DNA of 30,873 bases from a virus. Position numbers and translations under genes: made by a program. Of the stretch, positions 12,675 through 30,873 are shown piece by piece. Below the pieces are notes generated by a model, which saw only the letters and a list, made by a program, of their open reading frames with translations, ran no database searches and had not been told where the DNA came from. The stretch covers positions 1 through 30,873 of the IMG/VR virus record IMGVR_UViG_3300035698_017908. The stretch is one strand, 5' to 3'. How positions within the stretch are numbered: the first letter of the stretch is position 1; the number at the start of each line of letters is the position of its first letter.

Positions 12675-14520
12675 CGTTCACATCCATGGATAACTGATCG
12701 CTACGCGCTAGGAATTCCTTTAAAGTCTTATCATTTATTATAGCACGTGCGCAATCCTCAGTCCCAACAGCACTTGTGCCATCGGGGCGTTTCTCACTGA
12801 TTGGCTGTAATACTTTTATGCCTTCTGCGGATATCAGACTGTTCATCTCTTCGGATGAGAATGTAGTATATGGGTCCCCATCAGTAACGACAGCTATTGA
12901 GGGCGGTAATTCACGCTCTACCTCATCTAGCACATCGCTTATATCTTCCGGTGATGGTGTCCTCTGGTCGCCCTGTGCGCACATGTTGCCATTTTCAATA
13001 CTTTGCAGCGCAGTACGCAACAACTTTAGTAACACCTTACACCGTTTACTGTCAGCTAGGATCTGTATCTTGATAGATCCCATCTTATTTTTCAACTGTA
13101 TACGTCTCCAATACTTATGAATATATTTTACTATCATTACACGTAGTTTTTCCAGTGCTGATAGTACGTATTTAAACAATTCTTCTATTGGAGTACATAT
13201 AAAGATGGTATCTACTATGCTTGGGTCCGAGTACTCACTAGGATCTATGAGCGCTAATATCTTTGTAGCAGCCCTACTAAAGAACTGGTTTACGGTGTGT
13301 AGTATGGGCTCTAGTACGCGTTGCTCGAGTAGCGAGTTAGCACGGTCATATACTGCTGCTGCTGCAGCACCCAAGTCTAAAGAGATACCATTGGCTGCTA
13401 TTTTAAGTACAACTTCCATAAGTTTTAGTTGGTCTGTTGGTATAGCACCCACGAATCTTGTAAAACAACACAGTAAGTCTTTTGTGTATTTGGAAGATAA
13501 TATTGCTGCTAGTTTGTCTGTGCGTGAGTTGGCGGAGTTGGTCTTACATGCTATAAGTTTATACATCTCCGGTACCATGGCTATTGGTGCGCCGGCCGAT
13601 GTCAGGTACTTATCTGCCTGGTTAGAGGATGATTGTAGGTTACCGCGTGTGGTGTGTGCTTCTTCAGCAGCGATCCAGCCCTCATAGCCAGGATCATCTG
13701 TATTGGTAACATGTGACTGTGTATATTCTCGTATGTACTCGTAGTTTTCTGCGTTCTTGGTCTTTAAGTACCCTTCCATAACCGGGTCTGGTTGTTGTGC
13801 CGCGGCGTCGTCTACTGCGGAATCTATATTTGCGCTACTTACAGAGTCTTTAAATGAGGCTTTTAGTGCGCTCCTAGCATCTTCCTTATTGATTATGCCT
13901 TGTGCTAATATAGTAGCTATACCTACGGCTAGTTGTGTAGCAGTAGATGCTACTTCTGTAGCAGGGGGCATCTTACCGGCAACCGCCTGTTGTGTATTAG
14001 ATGACTGCCATGTCTGCATCATCTTGTTTGCTATAGATAGTAGTGCTATCTGGCCGCTCATAACCAGCAGCTCTTCTGTTGATAGTTCAGTACCCTGGGA
14101 TAGTACGGCCTCGCTAACTAGTCTGGAGTCAACCGGACCATCGCCAGTCATAGCGCTATTAAGCCTAATAGGATCTATGTTGGTCTCTTTATCTACAAAG
14201 TCTAGCGATTCCAGGTATTGATCAAAGGATATAAAGTCTTCGGACTGCCCAGGATATAATATACGTAGTGCTGTACGTACTGTTGCTGCGGAAGGGTGTA
14301 CTGGTATACGTGTTGGTGTAGTACGTTTAATCTCCGCTAGTAATGTATTGTTCTTGCCTATAACGCCCTCTAACTGACGAAACAGTTCTTGGGTCATTTC
14401 GGCTGTTACTTCGGGCTCTACTGGTGCGACAGTAGGTTCGCCTGCTGTAGGCGGTAGGTTAAGCTTACGCTCACGCTGATAATTAAACTCTGGTATGCCG
14501 TCGAGGTTTCCTATCGCCAT
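12661..14520 (-). CDS. Unknown 619-residue protein between terminase and portal
   Basis: Not recognised. The N-terminal 100 residues are Pro/Glu-rich and helical (EVTAEMTQELFRQLEGVIG). The middle is Ala/Ser/Thr-rich (about 150-260). Residues about 345-480 are strongly helical and partly hydrophobic (LCCFTRFVGAIPTDQL, LVMIVKYIHKYWRR region), then basic. The C-terminus is acidic. It overlaps terminase by 10 bases at its start and portal by 14 at its end, so the three genes are translationally linked. Placement between the two packaging genes hints at a portal- or packaging-associated virion protein, but no catalytic motif supports a specific job. AGGA precedes the ATG. Confidence 0.65.
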   Translation of the reverse strand: MAIGNLDGIPEFNYQRERKLNLPPTAGEPTVAPVEPEVTAEMTQELFRQLEGVIGKNNTLLAEIKRTTPTRIPVHPSAATVRTALRILYPGQSEDFISFDQYLESLDFVDKETNIDPIRLNSAMTGDGPVDSRLVSEAVLSQGTELSTEELLVMSGQIALLSIANKMMQTWQSSNTQQAVAGKMPPATEVASTATQLAVGIATILAQGIINKEDARSALKASFKDSVSSANIDSAVDDAAAQQPDPVMEGYLKTKNAENYEYIREYTQSHVTNTDDPGYEGWIAAEEAHTTRGNLQSSSNQADKYLTSAGAPIAMVPEMYKLIACKTNSANSRTDKLAAILSSKYTKDLLCCFTRFVGAIPTDQLKLMEVVLKIAANGISLDLGAAAAAVYDRANSLLEQRVLEPILHTVNQFFSRAATKILALIDPSEYSDPSIVDTIFICTPIEELFKYVLSALEKLRVMIVKYIHKYWRRIQLKNKMGSIKIQILADSKRCKVLLKLLRTALQSIENGNMCAQGDQRTPSPEDISDVLDEVERELPPSIAVVTDGDPYTTFSSEEMNSLISAEGIKVLQPISEKRPDGTSAVGTEDCARAIINDKTLKEFLARSDQLSMDVNDATI

Positions 14521-17500
14521 GTTTTTCGTCCTAATGGTGCTCTGTTAGCGCGTGCTAGTTTCTCTCGGAACGCCGGAGACAGTGTTGCGTTATTAGCGTT
14601 TATAGCCTCTACCACACCCATCTGCGGTCCCCTATCGCCAGTCCTACTTAGCGGCTCTATTCTATTAGCCGTTTGTTTTTGTGCTATCGCTTCTTGGTGC
14701 TTAACGTGGCTAAGTATGCGCTTAAAGTCGTTATCGAGTAACTCTACGCCAGCTGCGCTTGATGCGTTTGCTATATCGCTAAACTCCATAACAAACCCCA
14801 TGACTGCTAACATCCAAGCTATGATGACATGGTCATGTGTACCAGAGTACACTTTAATACCGCCGCGGCCAACGTATTCTGCTTTATATTCCCGCATTTG
14901 TCCAATAACACCGTCTCTGTGGTCCTCCGACCGCGGGAAGATACACTGTCCAGCTTCTACACGAGATACCGCTAAATCTACCATTAGGTTCTTGGCTTGC
15001 TTACGCACAGGACGCTTCGTAACCGGGTCTCTAATCTCTATACCACTCTGCATAGCAATACCCTTAACACGCTTGTGTAGTTGGGTCTCGCGATGCTCCA
15101 TACCATACTTATGTAGTAGTTCTACTTGCGTCTCGCCAGCACCGGCATCTACGTATATATACTCTGGATCCCATACACGGTTTAGCCGTACTGTTGCTTC
15201 TACCGCAGATAACTGTGTGAAGCTTTCTGGGTCAACTACTTCTCTATAGGCCACACGAAACTTTTTTGTTACTGTGCTATAGCCTACTATAACGAATACA
15301 CCACCAGTACCCTTGGAGTTCCAATCGATACCTATAATATACATCTCATTGTTACGCGGTACGGCTTCGTATACATCATAGTCCTGTATAACCCCTTCTG
15401 CCTCAATATCTTGTCGCCTAAATACACCCTGCTCTAGTTCACCAAATTCTGCACAGTTATACGTAACTGTACCATCGGCAAGTATATAAGAGTGGTCTGG
15501 GCTATCAACAGTTATGTTATACATCGGTGTTGGCATTGAGTATGGGCCCAGTCTTTGTGGTAATGTTGGATGGAAAACCAACCCGTTATGTATATTCTGT
15601 TTGCGCCACTCGGCAAACTTAGGAAAGATGCGTGGTGGGCGATCACTAATTCTAGGGATATCGGTACGTAAAAAGAAGCGAACGCGGTCTATGCTTATGT
15701 GCAGCACAGATGCTATATATTGCTTGTTAGCGTGCTCTGCCATAGTGCGCACAGAACTACATATCTCATTGCGTTTGGCTACGGCCTGTTCGACATCCAT
15801 AAGATAGTGGGCTATTATTTGGCCTTTATGTTCTTTTGCTGGGCTATACCTATAACCAACGTTTTGTATGAACCGTATATAGTTCTTTCTGCTTGCGTGC
15901 ACGTACAGTGTCCATACTGTTTTGTTTTGTTTACCGTACTTATGCTTAAGTGTGGTGTGTATCCCCCAGGCTGATAATGCGTACTGTATGTTGTGTAATA
16001 GCCGGTGCCTTTTACGGCCTATCTTTGTCATGGATAGCGATATGGTATTGGGTACGTAGTACGCAGTCATGCGTGGTGTCGAGCCTTCAGCACCAAACAG
16101 CGTGGCTACAAACTCCACCAATGCTGGGTGTTTGTTACAGCGTAGCCACGACGGAATGTCTATGTCCTGTTCTATCTTTTTACCGGCCACAGCGCCCTTA
16201 GACATCAACTCATTAGCCACAGCGGTACCGCATATTATTTGTTTTGTTGGTATTGGGCCCGGCTTGGGTGCTATTGTGGCCGCACTATACGGGAATAGTG
16301 CTTTTATGTCTTCCCGTATAAGTGCCATCTCTTCGTGTTCCTTGGAATAAAATGATGCTTGGTATTGCCCTGTTTTACTATATAGTGCTGGTCGGCCCCT
16401 TCCATTATTCTTGTATTCCTCTGGGCGCTTTCTGCACGTTATAGTACCATCACCAAGATTCCACGCTACAAGGCGTGCCAACCTACTACAATAGTCCTGT
16501 GCGTAGTAGCCGGTTATCGGTGCATATCCTATTTCTGTAGCGTCTGCTATGGTTACTTTGTTGTTGTTGCGGTCTTTTATGTTATGGTCGGCGGTACCTA
16601 CAATACGCCCAGCACATGTAAGTTTGCTGTGTTCGTGTTCCCATCTAGTTTGTTTTACCGCAAGCACCGTAGTAGGTACAATACCGGCGTCTGTGGGATG
16701 TAAAAGTGTGTCGCCAGGCTTTAGATTCTGTATCTCTTCTATAGTATTATCCGCTTTGCGTACTTCTGTACCGGCTGCAAGGCAGTATTCATGAGCAAAA
16801 TGTGCCGCAGAGTATGTACGTCTTAAGAATAGCTCGTTCTCCTTATCCCACTCTGGAGCTTCCATGGACGTGTAGTGTAGTACTCTAAAGCCTTCATTTG
16901 GGTTTGTTGCCCACTGGTAGAACTTACCACGTTGTCCAGTAGGCGTAGATGTTACGAACAGTTCCGGTACCTTGGCCCTAGTAAGGATAGCCATAGAGGC
17001 TACGATAGTTGGGTCATCTAGGTAATCGGCTTCATCGAAGATTAGCCAATCAGCAGGCTGTCCGCGAACATCGGATGCACCTTTACCTGTTTGTACGCCC
17101 GCGGTAAACAACCGTACGTAACTACCACTATCAAACTGTATTTCGTGGTTAGTTTCCCTACAGCGTCTAACGCGTCGCTTTAAGTCTGGAGATGCATCTA
17201 TGAACGATACCATACGGGTAAAGATTTCATTTACCTGCTTTTGGTATGGACATATGATAACAATCTTATAATTACTACGGGTATCGAGGCGGTTAAGTGT
17301 TTTAACTACAAGTACCTCGGTATTGTGTGTGAATAGCCCATTGGCTGCGTAATTTCTATCATCATAGTTATCAGTATCTAAGATAGATAGAGCATATGTT
17401 TGGTGGCTACCTATGTGCTCTACCGATAATACTTCATCCCATATAATATCTGACTCTGCCCAGGCACGCAGGTCAGGCGCATCTAACAACGCGTCTAGTT

Positions 17501-18983
17501 CTAATGCTACTCTACGCGATAAACCCCTGTTACGTTTAATGCGTATGTTTGGGCATACTTTATGCTCTACACGACCGCGTAAGGCCGCCTTAGCAAGCAT
17601 ACGGGCTTCTTTAGGTAGCGTGTCTGCTATAGAGCGTTCGTTAGCAGTCGGAGGTCTTATTTTATCTATTACGTTTTGCAGGGCTTCTTCTTTGCCCAAC
17701 ATACCTATTTCCTTGGCAAACGTACGTAGTCCTTCGCCCCTGTTTATCAATAACTGCCAAGCATCAAACAACTTACCATTACAGGTGGCCTTCTTTTTAA
17801 CAAAGCCGGCGTATATGCCGAATTTAAGCAGTAAGTGCTGCACGTCTACTACTAGTTGTTTAGACGCAGAACAATACCCTACCTGAGTATTACCATCTGC
17901 ACAAACGCATGCCCACCCGTCGCAACCAAATAACGTATTTAGGAATTTAGATACTACGCGTTTAGTGCCGCGTTGTACTCTTACAGGCACTGTTTTGCGC
18001 TTGGATAATTTACCAATAAGCCCGTGGCCGCGTAATACTTCTACAGCTGCGTTTTCATAGTCTATATCCCGGACAACCCTGTATTGCGGGGTTGTTCCGT
18101 ATCTACGCAGTAAGCAACCATAATACTCTGCTATATAGGCCAGGCGTGCTAATATAATAGGATTATCTTTAGTAAACCTAAAACCGTTTTGAGATAAACC
18201 CCCATCGGCTATAGCCATGCCTAACATTTCGGCTTCTTCGTCGGGCATCTCATCAGTACCAAATACCCCACGACCCATAGCCGCAACACGATCTTTGGGT
18301 TTTAGGTTTGCACCCTCAACCCAATCTTCGAAAGTACGGAATGGATGATCGGTGCTTACCTCTAGCTCACGTCCAGACACAAAAGATACCTTAACACAGG
18401 GCTTAACTATGTTCTTAGAGACTAGCGCCCTACGCTTTACGGTCTCTGTTCCACACTGTGATATTACATCAATTGTTTGGCCAACAAGGTCACTCACCAA
18501 AGTGTGCGATCCGTCGTAAGTGCTTATGTAGCAAGCCCTCAGACATTTTCCAAGCTGTCTTCCAAACAACAATAGCTGTTTGCGTGCAGTACATGTAAGT
18601 GGTTCTAACTGATAGAACTGTGGCCTCCAGGGCTCATCAGGGTTTTTAAGGTTGCGTAGCCTTGCTTCTGCCCACGACACGGGATCGTTAGCTATCCTAT
18701 AGTATATTTGTTCCTCTGGTGTAAGGCTCTTCCACGCATCAGTCCTCATTGTCTTAGCAAGCTGTTGCATAGTGCTTAGCTCACACATAGGACCAAAGGC
18801 TATACCGTTTGGGGTACGTGCTAAGGGATTATCTTTATAGGATATAATACACTTAGTGCATACCGCATCTACACCATCGTGACGAGATACTATGTCTTGG
18901 TAGCGTTTTATACGCTCCGCATCTATCTCTACTTGTAGTTTGCGTTGCTGTTCTTCGTACAGGCTTTGATGTTCTGCTGCCAT
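14511..18983 (-). CDS. terL: Terminase large subunit containing two inteins
   Basis: 1490 residues encoded; removing two inteins (147-554 and 734-1176) leaves a 639-residue terminase of normal size. ATPase: Walker A is GRQLGK|T, with Lys146 joined to Thr555 after splicing; Walker B is LIFDEAD (Asp650, Glu651); the coupling motif is VTSTPTG (about 678). Nuclease: acidic residues in IIGIDWN (Asp1220), YVDAGAGE (Asp1279) and GTHDH (Asp1384), the RNase-H-like metal-binding set. It cuts concatemeric DNA and drives it through the portal. The N-terminal extension holds C42-x2-C45 and a further Cys at 67. Upstream are ejection-type genes; the 3' end overlaps the next gene by 10 bases. The start has only a weak GAGA site. 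Confidence 0.95.
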   Translation of the reverse strand: MAAEHQSLYEEQQRKLQVEIDAERIKRYQDIVSRHDGVDAVCTKCIISYKDNPLARTPNGIAFGPMCELSTMQQLAKTMRTDAWKSLTPEEQIYYRIANDPVSWAEARLRNLKNPDEPWRPQFYQLEPLTCTARKQLLLFGRQLGKCLRACYISTYDGSHTLVSDLVGQTIDVISQCGTETVKRRALVSKNIVKPCVKVSFVSGRELEVSTDHPFRTFEDWVEGANLKPKDRVAAMGRGVFGTDEMPDEEAEMLGMAIADGGLSQNGFRFTKDNPIILARLAYIAEYYGCLLRRYGTTPQYRVVRDIDYENAAVEVLRGHGLIGKLSKRKTVPVRVQRGTKRVVSKFLNTLFGCDGWACVCADGNTQVGYCSASKQLVVDVQHLLLKFGIYAGFVKKKATCNGKLFDAWQLLINRGEGLRTFAKEIGMLGKEEALQNVIDKIRPPTANERSIADTLPKEARMLAKAALRGRVEHKVCPNIRIKRNRGLSRRVALELDALLDAPDLRAWAESDIIWDEVLSVEHIGSHQTYALSILDTDNYDDRNYAANGLFTHNTEVLVVKTLNRLDTRSNYKIVIICPYQKQVNEIFTRMVSFIDASPDLKRRVRRCRETNHEIQFDSGSYVRLFTAGVQTGKGASDVRGQPADWLIFDEADYLDDPTIVASMAILTRAKVPELFVTSTPTGQRGKFYQWATNPNEGFRVLHYTSMEAPEWDKENELFLRRTYSAAHFAHEYCLAAGTEVRKADNTIEEIQNLKPGDTLLHPTDAGIVPTTVLAVKQTRWEHEHSKLTCAGRIVGTADHNIKDRNNNKVTIADATEIGYAPITGYYAQDYCSRLARLVAWNLGDGTITCRKRPEEYKNNGRGRPALYSKTGQYQASFYSKEHEEMALIREDIKALFPYSAATIAPKPGPIPTKQIICGTAVANELMSKGAVAGKKIEQDIDIPSWLRCNKHPALVEFVATLFGAEGSTPRMTAYYVPNTISLSMTKIGRKRHRLLHNIQYALSAWGIHTTLKHKYGKQNKTVWTLYVHASRKNYIRFIQNVGYRYSPAKEHKGQIIAHYLMDVEQAVAKRNEICSSVRTMAEHANKQYIASVLHISIDRVRFFLRTDIPRISDRPPRIFPKFAEWRKQNIHNGLVFHPTLPQRLGPYSMPTPMYNITVDSPDHSYILADGTVTYNCAEFGELEQGVFRRQDIEAEGVIQDYDVYEAVPRNNEMYIIGIDWNSKGTGGVFVIVGYSTVTKKFRVAYREVVDPESFTQLSAVEATVRLNRVWDPEYIYVDAGAGETQVELLHKYGMEHRETQLHKRVKGIAMQSGIEIRDPVTKRPVRKQAKNLMVDLAVSRVEAGQCIFPRSEDHRDGVIGQMREYKAEYVGRGGIKVYSGTHDHVIIAWMLAVMGFVMEFSDIANASSAAGVELLDNDFKRILSHVKHQEAIAQKQTANRIEPLSRTGDRGPQMGVVEAINANNATLSPAFREKLARANRAPLGRKTWR
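15456..16784 (-). mobile_element. Intein 2 in terminase, with LAGLIDADG-type endonuclease
   Basis: 443 residues, from Cys734 to Asn1176. It begins CLAAGTEVRK, has a block B GTADH (796-800) and ends TVTYN|C, followed by extein AEFGELEQG. Removal joins HFAHEY to CAEFGE, restoring a segment seen in terminases just before the nuclease domain. Endonuclease motifs are at about 838-847 (LVAWNLGDGT) and 957-968 (FVATLFGAEGST), with acidic Asp845 and Glu966. The penultimate residue is Tyr1175 rather than the usual His, which is unusual for splicing. The intact downstream nuclease frame suggests that splicing still works. Confidence 0.9.
17322..18545 (-). mobile_element. Intein 1 in terminase, with LAGLIDADG-type endonuclease
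   Basis: 408 residues, from Cys147 to Asn554. The N-terminal block begins CLRACYISTYDG, the block-B-like STDHP (210-214) is present, and the end is FTHN|T, with penultimate His553, terminal Asn554 and Thr as the first downstream extein residue. It sits between Lys and Thr of the Walker A motif, a highly conserved site. Two endonuclease motifs lie at about 253-262 (LGMAIADGGL) and 347-357 (FLNTLFGCDGW), as in dodecapeptide homing endonucleases. Both acidic residues (Asp260, Asp355) are present, so the endonuclease may be active. Boundaries are read from conserved splice residues and from the intact P-loop they restore. Confidence 0.9.
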
Positions 18984-20543: not shown

Positions 20544-23500
20544 CTATGTTGCGCGTATAAGCCTAGACCTATTGTGGTGTAACCGAGGCTTACGCGGTGT
20601 ATCCCATTGTACCGGCCACCTGTTTCCAGGGCGAGCTATTCTTTTCCTGTTCTTCCATAGTACTTTGGTAGTAAGTCCTGCTGTGGGTTTAAGTTTGGAC
20701 CGCGGCCGTGCTAGTGTGAGCTGTGTTTCTTCTGGTATTGCGCCTACTATTTTACCGCATGCCTTACCTAAAACGTTGCCTAGTTTAGTTGCTTCCTTGA
20801 GGGGTTTAAGCCCACCACCAAAGCCAGTAAACTCACTATTTTGTATACCGTGGCCGGCAGTAAGATAGGTATCCATACCTCCAGTGTTATTAGTACCCGG
20901 TATACCATGTTTATTTCTATCATAATGCGATGGCATATGCGGGGAAGTGTTTACTGGGGAGAAGAACTGCCTGCCGCCCATACGTACAGCCTCGCCGGCT
21001 AATATTGTAGCTGCGAGTGTTGCGACACCACCAACAAGACCACCAATAACCATGCCTGCATACTTACCTATAAGCGCACCAGCAGGAGCACCAACACCAC
21101 CAAACACTGCACCTATAGCACCACCAATTCCGATACCAGCCATAGCACCTATAGAAGCGCCTGTAGTTACGCCGGCCCAACCTATAGTGTGCATGACTGC
21201 CATTTCGGCAGATGCAGCGGCGAACTCTATACCAAAACCAGCGACGGAGTTTCTATACTCACCCGCTCGTGATGCCGCAAAGAGTAAGTCAAAAGCAATA
21301 CCAAATTTCCCAGTTGCACGCTTACCAAATGTTTTGGCTCCCCTTAACAGCGCATTAGTCTCCTTAGACAAACTACCACTAGCTTTGGCAACCATGCCTC
21401 TGGCAGCGGTTTTTAATCCTTCAACTTCTTTTGATGGCGCTTTTTTACTAAATATATAGTTCTTAGCCTTACGAAAGTAAGCGGACATACCGGTACCAGG
21501 ATCTGGATGTGGTACATTCTTCCACGCAGTAGGCGTATACGCCTCTAGCGGTTTGCCGGCATAGGCCATAAACTCTAAGAAACCACCAACCTTACTAAGT
21601 ACGTGTGCTTTCCCGGCCATCTTACTATGCCAGAGGTGCTTACGGATATTTAGTTGCGCGGATAGATGCTTTTTAATACCGCCCCACGCACCGAACTTCT
21701 TGGCTAAGGCGTTTGTAGTACCAGGCTTAGTCTGGAATAACGATGCCTTAGCATCATCCCACCACCCATCTATATGGCCCCTCCATATAGCAGTACCTAG
21801 TTTAGCCGCCTTATCCTTCATACCGGTGGCTTCTTGTATACCGCGTGCCTTGGTTATATTGCTACGGAACTTCTTATGTATACCGCTACTATGTAATACG
21901 TTTGCTGTTTCTTCTTTATCGAGACCCATACCCTTACGTAGTAGTTGGTATAGTTCCTTATAACCAGCCTTAGCGTCATTCTCCATTGCGCCGCTATTAA
22001 AACTTGCCCATGCACCCTCTTGCCAGCTGCCTGGGAACCCCCAGCCTGTAACTGCTTTATACTCGTTTAGCGGTCTATATGGTGCGCCGTATGCTTGCTG
22101 TCCCGCATATAGAGCGCCTAAGTACTTACCCTGGTTCTGTTTAAGTGCCGGGCCACGAACATTAATAGCCGTACGTGCTGAGGACTCTATTAACGCACTT
22201 TGCATACCTGGTTTTTGTGCACGTCTTAACGGTGCTATAATTGGCGGTCTTTTAGTCTTATAGGGTACGTTTATCTTGGGTATAGACGTATCTATATACT
22301 TAGCCATAGTACGCGCAGATAAAACTAACTTATCTTTAGTTCTACGCGCGTATGTGGTTAATGCTGTTTTTATCTTACCTGGTTTCATTAACGGCTCTGC
22401 TTGCCGTATAAACCTACGCCTTAGTGGGTCTGCACTACGTAGTACCTGTTCGGCACGCCGTACACTCCATCCAGAACCAAACGCGGATACATTAGCACCT
22501 GGTAGCCTACTCGGTGATATACCAGAGCCTGCTACTCCCCAAGGACTAGATCCATCATTAATTCCTCGTTTCCATCCATATCGTTTAAGATAAGTATTTT
22601 CTTGCCAGTTACCCGCTTTCTCCCGTACCTCCATAACTTTGTAGAGTGCTTGGAGCTCGCCTTCATCCCACTGCGCTTGGCTTGTCGATTTATCAAGTCC
22701 TTGTACGAGACCGTATGTTTCAGCGAGGCTAGCTCTAGTAGCCAGTCTCTCCATGTTAGCCAAGCTAGTATTAGTAACACGCTCACCTCCAACCAAGTCT
22801 AGTAGTCTTTTTGCTTGCCATCCCTTGCTAGCCCACATACCCAGGCCTTCGTTTGCGGCGCGAGCTTCGGCGGCAGCAAACTTACGTTTGTCTGTTATGC
22901 CTTTACCGAATGATGGTAGTGACGACGCTGCACCAGAGGTTACGAGCTTTAAGTTAATATTAGGATGGACATCGCCAGATATAACACCCGTGTGTCTGCC
23001 ATAAGTATTCCTAAAAGGATCAAGCAGAAGGGTCATGTTCTGCTGGGTATTAATTATCTCTTGTAGGTACTTAGTACCGCCATGCCCTGCTGGTTGTATC
23101 CCGAACGGCCAACTAGGGTGTGTTTCCGGCGCATCAATACCAGATAGCCGTACTTGGATCGGGTCATCAAATAGGTGCCATAATCCCTTGCGAGCAAGAG
23201 TAATAGTATCGGCATCGTCTACTTTAGTTTTATAATCTTTAAGGTCAACTACGCCCATGAATACGTCAGGACGTAGACCAGGTATAGCACCGTCTGCACT
23301 AAACTTCCTTAGGTCCATATCTTTAATGGACAGTTGGGAAAGTCTTTGTTGGCTTATTGCGCTGCCCCAAGCGCGTTGGGCCTTCTGTACATCACCAGCA
23401 CTGTATTTACCCTGTTCTGGGTCTTTGTACGCACGGGTAGTACGCCACGCAGCGAGTAAGGACGATGCATTGGTTTCGTCCCGGCCAGTACCGAAGTCGG

Positions 23501-24917
23501 TTAGTTGGTGCGCTGCTGTTGTATTTATAGCACCAAAGGCTATACCATCTATAGTACTGTACTTAGAGTTTGCTTTACGTCTACCTTCTAGCCGATTGTC
23601 CTCTGGTATGAACGCATCCGCTAGTAATAAAGACCCTATTACCCCTACCGCGGTTGCTGTTTTGGGGTGTTTTCTAGCCGCATCTTTAACTTCTTTTACG
23701 GTACCTTTTAGTAGATTACGTACTTTAGGTATACGGTGTCCTGTAGTTGCTACAGCATCAGCGGCACTTCTAGAGCCGTCTGCTAGTTCCTGTGCGCCAG
23801 AATATACCTTACGCATATACGCACGGTCATACGCATGCACGGCGTCCGTGTTCTGGTATGTCTCGAGCATATCTCGTACATCGCGCTCGAGTGCAGACTT
23901 ATATTGGGTAATAAACTGTCCTTCGGACCTTACCCCATAGTTCTGCATAGCCGCTGCTGGGTCACTACTGCCAAACACTTCTTGTAGTATGCCAGTAAGT
24001 ACTACATCATGTTTGGCCTCGTGGGCAGTAACGGTTTTCTGTGCTACACGCTTGGCCATCTCTTGGCCTAGTAGCGTGCTAGTAGGTTTATCTAGGAAGC
24101 CCGGTGATATAGCTTCGGCTAAAAGCTGTTGTCTCCATCCTTTGGTATAACGGAATTCGGGGCGTTTCATGCCCTTACTAAATTCCTGCATACCAAATAT
24201 AGCTCTAGCTGTAGAATCTACCTCCTTCTTATAGTCTGTATAGTCTATCGCTGGCTGTGTGGAGAATAGGGCTTTAAACCCCTCATGCGGCTCCCACAGC
24301 TCCTTCATTGTCATCTTACGAACTTCGTCTATTTGCCCACTAGTCGCTTTCATTACAGCCTTAGGTGCTATATTACCTAAGGATATCTTTCCCTGCTTAG
24401 CAAGACCAAATAGGTACTTACGTGCTGGGTCAGACATTTCTTCTATCTGCCCAGCGTTCTTAGCCTTATGTAGTACGTCTAGAAACTTTGTATTACCCTG
24501 CCTGGTGGCAACACTAGCTAGGATGTTAAAGTCAAACTCTACGTTCCAGCCACCCATTTTATGGCCGTCAGCTAGTTTAGACCCCACAGCAGATAGTACT
24601 GCCGATTCGGAGTGTAGTTTAGCACCACTTTTAACCGCAGATAGGTGACGTTCATGTACGCCGGCTAATACATCGCCTGGTCGTGTTATGCCGGGTTGCC
24701 ATGCTGGTGTGCCGGCCTGTATCTTCTTAAAGTAATCTTCTGAAGACTTGGCTGTAGACAGGGCAGTACCCAGTATATCTGTATAACCACCCTCTACTAT
24801 CTTGCCTGAGACAGAACGAAGTGCGAACTCGGAGATGCCTACTGGTTTTTGTGCGCGTCCATACGCCGATATAAGACCGGTGGTCTCTAGGTCGAGTATG
24901 AAGGTGTCTTTACTCAT
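20544..24917 (-). CDS. Giant DnaQ-like exonuclease / SNase-like / Gly-rich membrane-active protein
   Basis: 1457 residues. Residues 1-245 match a DEDD exonuclease: Exo I is FILDLETTG (Asp9, Glu11), Exo II is GWNVEFDFNIL (Asp129), and Exo III is Y229-x4-D234 with following STARAI, where DnaQ proteins have H-x4-D. Residues about 415-437 are hydrophobic. Residues 555-700 match a staphylococcal nuclease domain: VDDADTI (Asp570), VRLSGIDAPE (Arg590, Asp595, Glu598), NTYGR (Arg641) and the A...GLGMW end. Residues about 1225-1310 form a Gly-zipper-like hydrophobic stretch. The C-terminus is basic. The gene precedes three Gly-rich genes and terminase. I infer a virion protein that enters with DNA and acts on nucleic acid. 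Packaging in the virion is not shown by the sequence. Confidence 0.8.
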   Translation of the reverse strand: MSKDTFILDLETTGLISAYGRAQKPVGISEFALRSVSGKIVEGGYTDILGTALSTAKSSEDYFKKIQAGTPAWQPGITRPGDVLAGVHERHLSAVKSGAKLHSESAVLSAVGSKLADGHKMGGWNVEFDFNILASVATRQGNTKFLDVLHKAKNAGQIEEMSDPARKYLFGLAKQGKISLGNIAPKAVMKATSGQIDEVRKMTMKELWEPHEGFKALFSTQPAIDYTDYKKEVDSTARAIFGMQEFSKGMKRPEFRYTKGWRQQLLAEAISPGFLDKPTSTLLGQEMAKRVAQKTVTAHEAKHDVVLTGILQEVFGSSDPAAAMQNYGVRSEGQFITQYKSALERDVRDMLETYQNTDAVHAYDRAYMRKVYSGAQELADGSRSAADAVATTGHRIPKVRNLLKGTVKEVKDAARKHPKTATAVGVIGSLLLADAFIPEDNRLEGRRKANSKYSTIDGIAFGAINTTAAHQLTDFGTGRDETNASSLLAAWRTTRAYKDPEQGKYSAGDVQKAQRAWGSAISQQRLSQLSIKDMDLRKFSADGAIPGLRPDVFMGVVDLKDYKTKVDDADTITLARKGLWHLFDDPIQVRLSGIDAPETHPSWPFGIQPAGHGGTKYLQEIINTQQNMTLLLDPFRNTYGRHTGVISGDVHPNINLKLVTSGAASSLPSFGKGITDKRKFAAAEARAANEGLGMWASKGWQAKRLLDLVGGERVTNTSLANMERLATRASLAETYGLVQGLDKSTSQAQWDEGELQALYKVMEVREKAGNWQENTYLKRYGWKRGINDGSSPWGVAGSGISPSRLPGANVSAFGSGWSVRRAEQVLRSADPLRRRFIRQAEPLMKPGKIKTALTTYARRTKDKLVLSARTMAKYIDTSIPKINVPYKTKRPPIIAPLRRAQKPGMQSALIESSARTAINVRGPALKQNQGKYLGALYAGQQAYGAPYRPLNEYKAVTGWGFPGSWQEGAWASFNSGAMENDAKAGYKELYQLLRKGMGLDKEETANVLHSSGIHKKFRSNITKARGIQEATGMKDKAAKLGTAIWRGHIDGWWDDAKASLFQTKPGTTNALAKKFGAWGGIKKHLSAQLNIRKHLWHSKMAGKAHVLSKVGGFLEFMAYAGKPLEAYTPTAWKNVPHPDPGTGMSAYFRKAKNYIFSKKAPSKEVEGLKTAARGMVAKASGSLSKETNALLRGAKTFGKRATGKFGIAFDLLFAASRAGEYRNSVAGFGIEFAAASAEMAVMHTIGWAGVTTGASIGAMAGIGIGGAIGAVFGGVGAPAGALIGKYAGMVIGGLVGGVATLAATILAGEAVRMGGRQFFSPVNTSPHMPSHYDRNKHGIPGTNNTGGMDTYLTAGHGIQNSEFTGFGGGLKPLKEATKLGNVLGKACGKIVGAIPEETQLTLARPRSKLKPTAGLTTKVLWKNRKRIARPGNRWPVQWDTPRKPRLHHNRSRLIRAT

Positions 24918-28595: not shown

Positions 28596-29456
28596 TTACT
28601 CTCCTACCTCTTTCCAGGAATCTGTAGCGAAGAAGCCCGCAGCTATCGATTGTCCGCTGTACGCCCTTATAACTAACGAATACGGATCTGTTATTGTGAT
28701 AGTAGGTACAACACCTGGTAAGCATCCTGTACAAAAGACAAACGTAACCGCAGCACTAGCCTCTGCAAGAACCCCCGATACCTGTACGTCTAGTTTGCCC
28801 GCACTCGAGATATCGTATACGTACACTGTATTCTGCAGTGCGTCTCCCCACTTTGTACCGCTAGGGCGGGTAATCGCACCAACTACGTATCCAGATAGCC
28901 CGCTCACGGTTTCTGGCACGAATGGCTGCTCTACGCATGCCAGCGGCAGCCGTACCTTTACCTGCGTCCCCGGTGTAGGTATTGAGGGAACATGGCGACA
29001 ATCATATAGCGATTTCCCAGGAAGTATACTTATGGTGTACTCTCCGGCATCAACATATATAATACCTTCTGATAACATACCAGATAACTCAACACCAGCC
29101 CAGCGTGTGCTATCTAAGACCGTAGTACGCTGTATGGAGACTGGTTCCCCATGCCATACGAAGTTATGGATAAAGTGGGCCCCAATACCAACTTCGTATG
29201 TACCTGGTCTATGTGGCGGCCAAGCAGGAGGAGCGAAGCTATGCTTTTCACAAAAGCGTACTAACTCTTCCGGCACACCAGTAACAACGTAGTCATACTC
29301 TCCAGGTAGTATGCCAACATCACGTACAGACAAAATGTGTGCTTGTTCCCAGTTGGTAGGTGTCCACACTATATTTGCTTTGTGGGACATAGCTAGTTCA
29401 TGCAAGATCCAGGGCATCACTGTTGGAAAGTCCACGTGGCTAGTAGTTTCACCCAT
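28596..29456 (-). CDS. Alternative product: unknown 286-residue protein from internal start
   Basis: Reading from ATG 29456 gives a protein opening MGETTSHVDFPTVMPWILHE. It has a mixed first 120 residues and a beta-rich remainder with repeated Tyr/Val strands (YTISILPGKSLYDC, GYVVGAITRPSG), ending DSWKEVGE. AGGAGG precedes the ATG at ideal spacing, stronger than the site before the long form. I believe this is the ancestral gene and was first in the operon before the ART-like segment arrived. Function is unknown; a beta-rich virion protein is possible. Confidence 0.55.
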   Translation of the reverse strand: MGETTSHVDFPTVMPWILHELAMSHKANIVWTPTNWEQAHILSVRDVGILPGEYDYVVTGVPEELVRFCEKHSFAPPAWPPHRPGTYEVGIGAHFIHNFVWHGEPVSIQRTTVLDSTRWAGVELSGMLSEGIIYVDAGEYTISILPGKSLYDCRHVPSIPTPGTQVKVRLPLACVEQPFVPETVSGLSGYVVGAITRPSGTKWGDALQNTVYVYDISSAGKLDVQVSGVLAEASAAVTFVFCTGCLPGVVPTITITDPYSLVIRAYSGQSIAAGFFATDSWKEVGE

Positions 29457-29759
29457 AACTTCCTCCTGTAATCGCTTCACGCTTGCCAGTGGAATCGGGT
29501 TGAAAACGGCGAACTGCCAACATGTTTGCCCGGGTGGTGGGTCAAATCCGTAGTTGTCGGATAGATTGCCTTCGGAGTCCGTCACCCCGGCCCCCTTCGG
29601 CTGGTATTCGACTTCCAGAATTACTCCCCCACCAAACCTCTTGGCGATCTCCATGTCCGGTGTCAGGTAGGTGTAGCGGTCTGGGTGAATTCCCCACAGA
29701 ATGCCCTCCTCCTGAATCTTCTCCCACACCTCCTCACTGGTCCCGTGATAAAACTTCAT
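28596..29759 (-). CDS. ADP-ribosyltransferase-like domain joined in frame to an unknown protein
   Basis: 387 residues in one frame. Residues 1-98 look like an ART/KptA-type fold: FYHGTSEEVWEKIQEEGI (His5), RYTYLTPD (Tyr around 29-31) and ILEVEY (Glu49 or 51), a possible H-Y-E set for using NAD. Residues 102-387 are a separate beta-rich protein with no recognised family. Met102 (ATG at 29456) has its own AGGAGG site with a 5-base spacer, so a 286-residue protein can be made alone. The ART part is about 55% GC against about 47% in the next 300 bases (hand count) and is bounded by an 18-bp repeat. Whether the long form is a real fusion or simply lacks a stop is open. Confidence 0.65.
   Translation of the reverse strand: MKFYHGTSEEVWEKIQEEGILWGIHPDRYTYLTPDMEIAKRFGGGVILEVEYQPKGAGVTDSEGNLSDNYGFDPPPGQTCWQFAVFNPIPLASVKRLQEEVMGETTSHVDFPTVMPWILHELAMSHKANIVWTPTNWEQAHILSVRDVGILPGEYDYVVTGVPEELVRFCEKHSFAPPAWPPHRPGTYEVGIGAHFIHNFVWHGEPVSIQRTTVLDSTRWAGVELSGMLSEGIIYVDAGEYTISILPGKSLYDCRHVPSIPTPGTQVKVRLPLACVEQPFVPETVSGLSGYVVGAITRPSGTKWGDALQNTVYVYDISSAGKLDVQVSGVLAEASAAVTFVFCTGCLPGVVPTITITDPYSLVIRAYSGQSIAAGFFATDSWKEVGE
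29453..29470. repeat. 18-bp direct repeat, copy at the internal start
   Basis: CCATAACTTCCTCCTGTA occurs here and again at 29773-29790, exactly 320 bases apart. On the minus strand each copy is a complete AGGAGG ribosome binding site plus ATGG start. The bases on either side of the two copies differ, so the match is exactly 18 bases. The segment between them carries the ART-like domain. Confidence 0.9.
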
Positions 29760-29837: not shown

Positions 29838-30097
29838 TAGGTAAACCGGACGTATGTATATATTTCTGTCCAGTTTCTATATAGGAGGTTGAAAACCTAT
29901 ATTTATATTTCGGCGGTTTTGAACATAGGCCTAAGGCTACGTATTTTAGTAATTTTTATATAACGCACACATATACATATATAAGATTTTGGAATTTAGT
30001 AAGGGTAATAATTACATGATATAACAACTCTATAGTTGTTGTTTCGTCCCCCGGGGTCTGTTTTAGGGTCTATGCTTGGCCTTAAAGTATGCCTATC
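29838..30097. other. AT-rich intergenic DNA with promoter-like elements
   Basis: No gene is visible. It holds runs of TATA-like sequence, a small inverted repeat AGGTT-GAA-AACCT (29886-29898), an operator-like palindrome GTAAT-A-ATTAC (30005-30015), a hairpin AACAACT-CTAT-AGTTGTT (30023-30040), and a possible rightward promoter TTTATA (29955-29960), 17 bases, TATATA (29978-29983). All of these are weak individually. The stretch probably controls both divergent directions. Confidence 0.4.
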
Positions 30098-30730
30098 AGA
30101 GTGTGCACCTGCGCATAGCTACGCATTAAGCGTTTGCATAGCAGTGTATGCACATCAGTATGGCATATGGATAAGACTTAGCATATGACTACTAACTCAG
30201 ACAAGACAACTTGGCACTTGCTTAGGTAGCCGTATGTGGCACTAAGTGGAGGAGTAACGGACGCATACACGCTTAACCACCACAGTATATCTATACTGTA
30301 GCGTTGAGTAAGACCATGGTGTACGCATAGTACTGAATGTGAGAAACAGTACTGTGTGCTTGGCATGCATCATGGTGGGTACATAGGTGTTAGGCCTGCT
30401 CATCGGCACGTAGATGAGTGGCTCCCTTGCTATGTGGAGCCTTACAAATAGCATAAGTACACATGCTAGTAGTGGAGTGGACTAGCTGCGCTATACCAGT
30501 AGTGCACCAACAAGGACTGGTACCTTGCCTAGTGGGTACGTGAGGACTAGGTATGCTCTGCCTGTAGCATGGGAGGACAGGCCACACACTACGTCTACCC
30601 TGTAGGTAGGCATGACAAGGTAATACTAACCCTATGTGAGGGGGTTAGTAGGAATAGCCTAAGCACTACACTCATAGTGGGTTGCACTATGGGTAGGGCT
30701 GTATAGGGTCGCATCCTAGTTAGGCTATTA
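30098..30730 (+). ncRNA. Candidate large structured noncoding RNA
   Basis: No convincing gene lies on either strand, yet the stretch is tiled with hairpins. Perfect stems include 30135-30140/30147-30152, 30282-30289/30292-30299, 30313-30318/30371-30376, 30399-30404/30413-30418, 30420-30425/30436-30441, 30465-30470/30481-30486, 30494-30500/30516-30522, 30528-30533/30546-30551, 30560-30565/30577-30582, 30595-30599/30605-30609 and 30624-30632/30642-30650. A 12-bp stem with two G-U pairs lies at 30324-30335/30347-30358. A three-way-junction-like fold (30653-30729) ends it. G-U pairs fit rightward transcription. Phage ROOL and GOLLD RNAs are known large ornate RNAs; relation to them is untested. 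A long structured leader is the alternative. Confidence 0.5.
30653..30729 (+). ncRNA. Three-way-junction-like RNA fold upstream of the rightward gene
   Basis: A 10-bp perfect closing stem (30653-30662 with 30720-30729) encloses two hairpins. The first pairs 30663-30669 with 30693-30699 (six of seven) and 30672-30679 with 30685-30692 (one U-G), with a GGUUG loop. The second pairs UAGG (30704-30707) with CCUA (30715-30718). It ends 18 bases before the AAGGAG of the downstream gene, so a cis-regulatory role is possible. It is not a tRNA: the anticodon arm and D-loop do not fit. Confidence 0.5.
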
Positions 30731-30760
30731 GCGTAATAGTACGCAATAAGGAGACACAAC

Positions 30761-30873
30761 ATGGAAACGTACTGTTGGAGACAGGAATGTACGTGGCCAG
30801 ACCACGTACAGGAAGAATCGGCAGATCTATTGGACCTGCTGGAGGAGTTGCTCCAATTTAAATGGTATCACTA
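30761..30873 (+). CDS. Rightward gene, start only (cut by window edge)
   Basis: ATG at 30761 is preceded by AAGGAG with a 7-base spacer. The visible 37 codons read METYCWRQECTWPDHVQEES, then an acidic Leu-rich helix (ADLLDLLEELLQ) ending FKWYH at the edge. Two Cys near the start may bind metal. It is the only plus-strand gene in the window, so it opens a divergent unit, perhaps of early genes. Family unknown; the protein is incomplete here. Confidence 0.65.
   Translation, partial: METYCWRQECTWPDHVQEESADLLDLLEELLQFKWYH

Follow-up and report, generated by a model that had tools for sequence, protein, structure and literature searches.

To our knowledge, very few large structured RNAs have been described from phages, and what they do is unknown. 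GOLLD and ROOL are large (500–800+ nt), highly structured, phage-encoded and conserved RNAs; both are frequently found near tRNA islands, the linkers of GOLLD hold tRNAs in some cases and the function of either RNA is unknown (PMC12286853). Phage ICP1 has an abundant noncoding RNA of ∼800 nt, similar in size to the RNA described here and likewise from a space without open reading frames, which its authors compare with GOLLD and ROOL and for which no role is known (PMC7567579). MALAT1 and NEAT1 are long noncoding RNAs with a 3′ tRNA-like element (mascRNA and menRNA, respectively) that serves their release by RNase P and RNase Z, with RNase P freeing MALAT1 at mascRNA (PMC11693755), and the phage C4 antisense RNA and M3 RNA are noncoding RNAs that are substrates of bacterial RNase P (PMC11143913). 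tmRNA, which is also large, has an acceptor and T-arm that resemble those of a tRNA. In RNAs that act as sponges for CsrA/RsmA, short hairpins are numerous and their small loops contain A(N)GGA. At the locus analysed here we regard it as practically certain that there is a conserved structured RNA of ∼700 nt, read rightward and present in two distantly related phages (capsid proteins about 50% identical). Our explanation as a whole, a structured noncoding RNA of the phage that acts in trans, is released by tRNA enzymes and presents a scaffold of GGA-ending loops, is held at a probability of about 0.6; it lacks transcript data and rests on three homologues.

The window (the whole stretch of DNA analysed, 30,873 nt, IMG/VR record IMGVR_UViG_3300035698_017908) comes from a large uncultured phage with a contractile tail, for which capsid, portal, terminase and sheath are recognizable. 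The portal protein is 26–28% identical to those of the closest named phages, Moorella phage MTATph1 (177 kb), Bacillus phage KLEB27-3 (217 kb) and Acinetobacter phage ME3 (235 kb), and the RNA was not found in any of the three. All recognized structural genes of the window run leftward; the RNA region lies between the start of the last leftward gene (29759) and a rightward gene with its ATG at 30761, and is apparently transcribed rightward, divergent from the structural genes, at the head of the operon starting at 30761. Capsid searches gave five contigs with 44–53% capsid identity, only two of which are long enough to span the region (L006, 57.6 kb, and L007, 63.7 kb), and a DNA search hit each of these where the RNA was expected and in the expected orientation (E = 1.4e-8 and 6.6e-6). 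The RNA-bearing parts taken from these two records are referred to as L020 and L021. In the window and in both relatives the RNA comes after a long intergenic stretch and stops 15–16 nt upstream of a rightward start codon; these three sequences, all metagenome-derived, are the known homologues. Searching a phage collection with the RNA using blastn gave no homologue, and scans of the genome contig collection with capsid alignments gave no relative; a rerun of the capsid scan from six sequences settled on identical patterns and gained nothing, and a sheath scan added one contig, which has no match to the model of the 3′ module (R1, see below). A third pattern match, L024, was rejected as chance, as it falls in a coding region of an unrelated 94.7 kb contig in which there is no capsid relative. 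L021 carries an array of 32 tRNA genes (called by ARAGORN) on the minus strand (L021:55-4211), ∼8 kb to the left of the structured RNA; neither the window nor the retrieved sequence of the other long relative yielded any tRNA.

An earlier note on this DNA had described positions 30098–30730 as gene-free, densely packed with stems and a candidate large structured RNA of the phage. The absence of a gene holds: the longest open reading frames are of 62–70 codons, overlap each other and all lie on the minus strand; across the three homologues, stop-to-stop frames reach no more than 77–84 codons, on differing strands. A recoded gene was ruled out, since the frames are still broken with reassigned stops, barring scattered runs of 70–176 codons on conflicting strands; the genes of the phage terminate at all three stop codons, which also counters reassignment. 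The density of stems is borne out by 27 helix segments, each 5 bp or longer, in the best plus-strand fold of 30040–30761. The element starts ∼50 nt earlier and stops ∼25 nt later than given there (about 30046–30755). The region as a whole is more stable than dinucleotide shuffles, with z = −3.6 on the plus strand and −5.3 on the minus strand (0 of 100 shuffles in each case). This excess is about equal on both strands, and so is not strand-specific, it is patchy (plus-strand z from −3.4 to +1.5 in 150 nt windows) and it also occurs in coding windows, 11–15% of which are at z = −2 or lower; energy alone is thus inconclusive, and as a weak guide it was dropped as proof. Nor was the best-energy fold accepted as the full structure, because it buries locally covarying hairpins; the hairpin at 30420–30441 does not appear in it. 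The proof of a structured RNA comes from covariation and not from energy. Four G–U pairs that had been put forward as holding only for rightward transcription (30325/30357, 30328/30354, 30398/30419 and 30672/30692) are quoted correctly and the argument from them is sound, but it has minor weight because, measured against shuffles, the two strands are about equal in stability. Stability on both strands, together with the divergent intergenic position, could also be accommodated by a single-stranded or cruciform DNA element (an origin, packaging or recombination site) instead of an RNA. We find this hardly credible, as the T-loop and acceptor geometry described below is RNA-specific and unidirectional, the G–U pairs in conserved helices and the orientation towards the gene favour a plus-strand RNA, and the length is far beyond that of known cruciform sites.

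Piecewise alignment of the window with L021, assessed against shuffles, gave z values of 4.4, 4.0, 3.4, 7.6 and 11.8 in successive segments of 30046–30761, with no similarity above shuffles in the linker 30593–30652. Outside the element, the upstream promoter region is not clearly similar (z = 1.7) and the downstream coding start is not similar (z = 0.2). The proteins encoded downstream in the three phages are unrelated (only 37 residues of that of the window are present). As the downstream genes differ and the similarity drops at both ends, the conserved unit has definite limits and does not depend on the gene after it. Helices matched by hand fall into eight families with 41 pairs, all of which are standard in every copy, with none broken, and 23 of which have changed on both sides. 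This matching was partly performed by eye, and an independent covariance-model test was therefore run, in which the models R1 and R2 were built from the window sequence alone and searched against 198 kb of sequence from this phage and its relatives. Apart from its own sequence, R1, covering the 3′ module, matches nothing but the homologous sites of L021 (E = 5.5e-8) and L020 (E = 2.5e-4). R2, covering a pair of hairpins termed A and B, finds two tandem copies in L021 (E = 5e-12 and 7.2e-9) and one copy in L020 (E = 5.8e-7), the next-best match having an E of 0.058. In the R1 alignment 95% of cells are paired and 16 of the 29 pairs are compensatory, which is reached by none of 500 shuffles; structures slid along the same alignment have 31–43% of cells paired. 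The alignment was fitted to the structure and is thus biased in its favour. Covariation in the relatives is positive both for the 3′ module and over the eight helix families, and single-sequence models locate the syntenic sites in two relatives; the candidate large structured RNA of the phage was thus rightly proposed.

Table 1. Features of the structured RNA and of its junction with the downstream gene (window coordinates).
Feature	Position	Strand	Support
Whole conserved structured RNA	30046-30755 (approximate ends)	+	Similarity to L021 above shuffles except in the linker
5′ domain, long irregular stem with inner hairpins	30054-30204	+	Pairing probability 0.88-0.99 (outer stems)
Hairpin with large loop ending GGAGGAGTAACGGA	30232-30268	+	Stem covaries with L021
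Long bipartite hairpin, loop AATGTGAGAAA	30313-30376	+	Pairing probability 0.98-0.99; region like L021 (z = 3.4)
Conserved linker around GTTAGGCCT	30388-30396	+	Alignments; identical in L021
Hairpin with covarying stem	30399-30418	+	4 of 5 compared pairs compensatory, three phages
Hairpin with covarying stem GGCTCC/GGAGCC	30420-30441	+	All 4 compared pairs compensatory
A+B hairpin pair, copy 1 (A 30464-30488, B 30495-30521)	30464-30521	+	Weak match to copy-2 model (12.7 bits, E = 0.5)
A+B hairpin pair, copy 2 (A 30528-30551, loop TGGGTACGTGAGGA; B 30560-30582, loop TAGCATGGGAGGA)	30528-30582	+	R2 model
Linker hairpin of 10 bp, TACTAACCCT-ATGTGAG-GGGGTTAGTA	30624-30650	+	Pairing probability 0.97; segment not sequence-conserved
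tRNA-like module	30653-30729	+	R1 model, covariation, shape scan
3′ hairpin GCGTA-ATAG-TACGC (14 nt)	30731-30744	+	2 compensatory pairs, loop conserved
Shine-Dalgarno and ATG (30761) of the downstream gene	30749-30873	+	Sequence; gene truncated by the contig end

The 5′ domain is closed by GTCTG (30056–30060) pairing with CAGAC (30198–30202), and onward from there; a similar fold of ∼145 nt is predicted in all three phages, and the sequence resembles that of L021 (z = 4.4). This domain stays a prediction from sequence: its only support is the similarity between the window and L021 and the likeness of the fold, and its single-sequence model (R3) found neither relative. In the hairpin at 30232–30268, comparison with L021 shows seven pairs kept and two changed on both sides around a conserved loop. 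The two local hairpins at 30399–30418 and 30420–30441 have stems that are wholly different among the three phages with the pairing retained; those of the first are CTCATC/GATGAG, CCTGT/ACAGG and CCAGT/ACTGG. The tandem duplication of the A+B pair is shared with L021, and the B stem of copy 2 is 100% paired, with three of its five pairs compensatory. Across the 12 hairpin copies examined, GGA stands before the closing C at the 3′ edge of the loop in 11, and a Shine-Dalgarno-like tetramer is present in the loops of all 12, compared with an average of 1.4 of 12 for random segments. The GGA-loop statistic is partly circular, as the A and B hairpins were recognized via their loops. A loop of sequence ATGTGAG (30336–30342 and 30634–30640) is common to two different hairpins and also occurs in a hairpin region of L020 (∼9925); it is possibly another repeated loop type.

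The fold at the 3′ end had been likened to a three-way junction. The fold is real, as seen from R1 and the covariation, but it is in fact a tRNA-like module, which had gone unrecognized. It consists of an acceptor-like stem (30653–30662/30720–30729), a central arm (30670–30679/30685–30694) and a T-arm (30704–30718), with the central arm standing alone where a tRNA has its D and anticodon arms. The acceptor-like stem is of 10 bp in the window, 9 bp in L021 and 7 bp in L020, and the T-arm adjoins it within 0–2 nt. The T-loops of L021 (TTCGAAC) and L020 (TTCGATT) both match the tRNA consensus TTCRANY exactly, while that of the window (GTCGCAT) deviates. Defined as an acceptor of at least 7 bp that is 0–3 nt from a T-arm with a 7 nt NTCGNNN loop, a tRNA-like element is present in all three homologues, and its stems covary. 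A scan with the shape descriptor gives a single plus-strand hit per RNA, in every case at the 3′ end; of 2000 shuffles of each of the three RNAs, 1, 3 and 0 contain the shape. The same scan flags 21 sites on the L021 strand with the genuine tRNA array. ARAGORN reports no tRNA in the window or at the module, which is missing a D-arm and an anticodon arm. Further deviations of the module from a tRNA are the lack of CCA, the absence of a clear D-loop GG pair and a coaxial acceptor and T stem of 13–15 bp compared with the canonical 12 bp. The 3′ hairpin that follows has the counterpart GCTCA-ATAG-TGAGC in L020. No terminator-like site was found between the RNA and the gene at 30761, so the two probably share a transcript.

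The missing terminator, the location in each of the three phages directly 5′ of a start codon and the placing of the 3′ hairpin 15–16 nt from the ATG are also what would be expected of a very long 5′ leader (riboswitch-like or an attenuator) that controls the operon at 30761 in cis, with the module and the 3′ hairpin forming a switch by the Shine-Dalgarno sequence. We consider such a leader to be unlikely: the RNA is conserved yet the downstream genes are unrelated, which is evidence against cis regulation, a riboswitch or T-box match in Rfam is absent and ∼700 nt would be an exceptional length for a leader. We infer with good confidence that the RNA acts in trans.

An Rfam scan of the window, riboswitch and T-box families included, gave no family above threshold, and relaxed scans of the window region and of both relatives gave only chance-level matches. 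The mascRNA-menRNA model (RF01684) matched the module of L020 only, at 20.7 bits (E = 1.1), and did not reach its cut-off of 42.5 bits; MALAT1 and NEAT1 are human nuclear RNAs, and any resemblance to them would be convergent. The C4 and M3 RNAs differ in having no Rfam match in the window, and C4 RNA is much smaller. Unlike tmRNA, the window RNA has both acceptor strands together at its 3′ end, and it has neither a tag reading frame nor a tmRNA call by ARAGORN. For a CsrA/RsmA sponge the evidence is mixed: GGA stands at the 3′ edge in 11 of the 12 loops, but these are of 12–25 nt, unlike the short loops of CsrA sites, and there is no Rfam match. ICP1 differs in being a phage without tRNAs. GOLLD (RF02032; threshold 150 bits) has no match at E ≤ 10 in the window, either relative or MTATph1, and ROOL (RF03087; threshold 99.1 bits) has none in the same sequences, although this search had no positive control; the earlier note had mentioned both families without claiming a match, and this caution was justified. 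One could still suppose a member or drifted relative of ROOL or GOLLD, forming RNA-only cages and bearing the tRNA-like module as an added tail. The length is alike, the phage is large, there are many arrayed loops with conserved sequence, and in one relative the 32-tRNA array lies ∼8 kb from the RNA, which recalls the tRNA islands and tRNA-holding linkers noted for these families (PMC12286853). We judge this to be very unlikely nevertheless, as neither model matches, there is no detectable likeness in sequence or structure and no common motif was recognized; the part of the source available to us also describes neither tandem GGA-loop A/B hairpins nor a 3′ tRNA-like module for these families (PMC12286853). 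The RNA is a separate family, which is grouped with the large phage RNAs by its size and setting, and its tRNA-like 3′ feature is new.

For the trans-acting RNA that we prefer, the tRNA-like element at the junction of RNA and gene suggests cutting by RNase P and RNase Z, for which the phage C4 and M3 RNAs and MALAT1 offer precedents. RNase P would cut on the 5′ side of the module and an RNase Z-type enzyme on the 3′ side, which would free the body from the shared transcript in a manner similar to the release of MALAT1 RNA at mascRNA; the 3′ hairpin would stay behind on the downstream mRNA as a protective cap. That host tRNA-processing enzymes cut the RNA from a common transcript is a tentative inference made without cleavage data; it has against it that CCA is missing, that the D-loop guanosines are unclear and that the stem length is not canonical. 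The freed body would most likely be a scaffold that acts via its arrayed loops ending in GGA, a function that is untested. Contact of the body with the ribosome (through the anti-Shine-Dalgarno sequence) is the most concrete guess as to its role, if a rather improbable one; RNA–RNA self-assembly of the ROOL/GOLLD kind is an alternative, and a protein sponge working through the GGA-ending loops is conceivable. It is doubtful that the full chain applies, namely a new family of large phage noncoding RNAs using tRNA maturation, in which a 3′ tRNA mimic leads to release by RNase P and RNase Z and a scaffold of Shine-Dalgarno-like loops then engages the host ribosome; if true, this would be a phage counterpart to MALAT1-type maturation. 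The locus adds a distinct RNA family that can be recognized by its tRNA-like 3′ module, and the module allows a specific prediction for biochemistry, namely that RNase P cuts at a known base.

Several protein-coding genes of the window are also worth recording. The gene at 28596–29759 encodes a protein of 387 amino acids (starting FYHGTSEEVWEKIQEEGILWG...YLTPD...AKRFG) which by eye resembles the beginning of an ADP-ribosyltransferase-type fold and has no match in Pfam or PHROGs. The C-terminal domain of the protein at 76–753, with the motif GSG[VI]SIDD, reappears in separate open reading frames to the left of the RNA in both relatives (L020:3211-3828 and L020:6809-7609; L021:6190-6993). The gene for the terminase large subunit (14511–18983) contains two apparent inteins, at about residues 147–554 and 739–1177, with LAGLIDADG and intein-splicing domains; the first sits directly after the Walker A-like GRQLGK, and the terminase gene of the relatives L005, L006 and L007 is without them. 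The protein of 1457 amino acids at 20544–24917 has a staphylococcal-nuclease-like domain, and its versions in the relatives are of up to 1843 amino acids.
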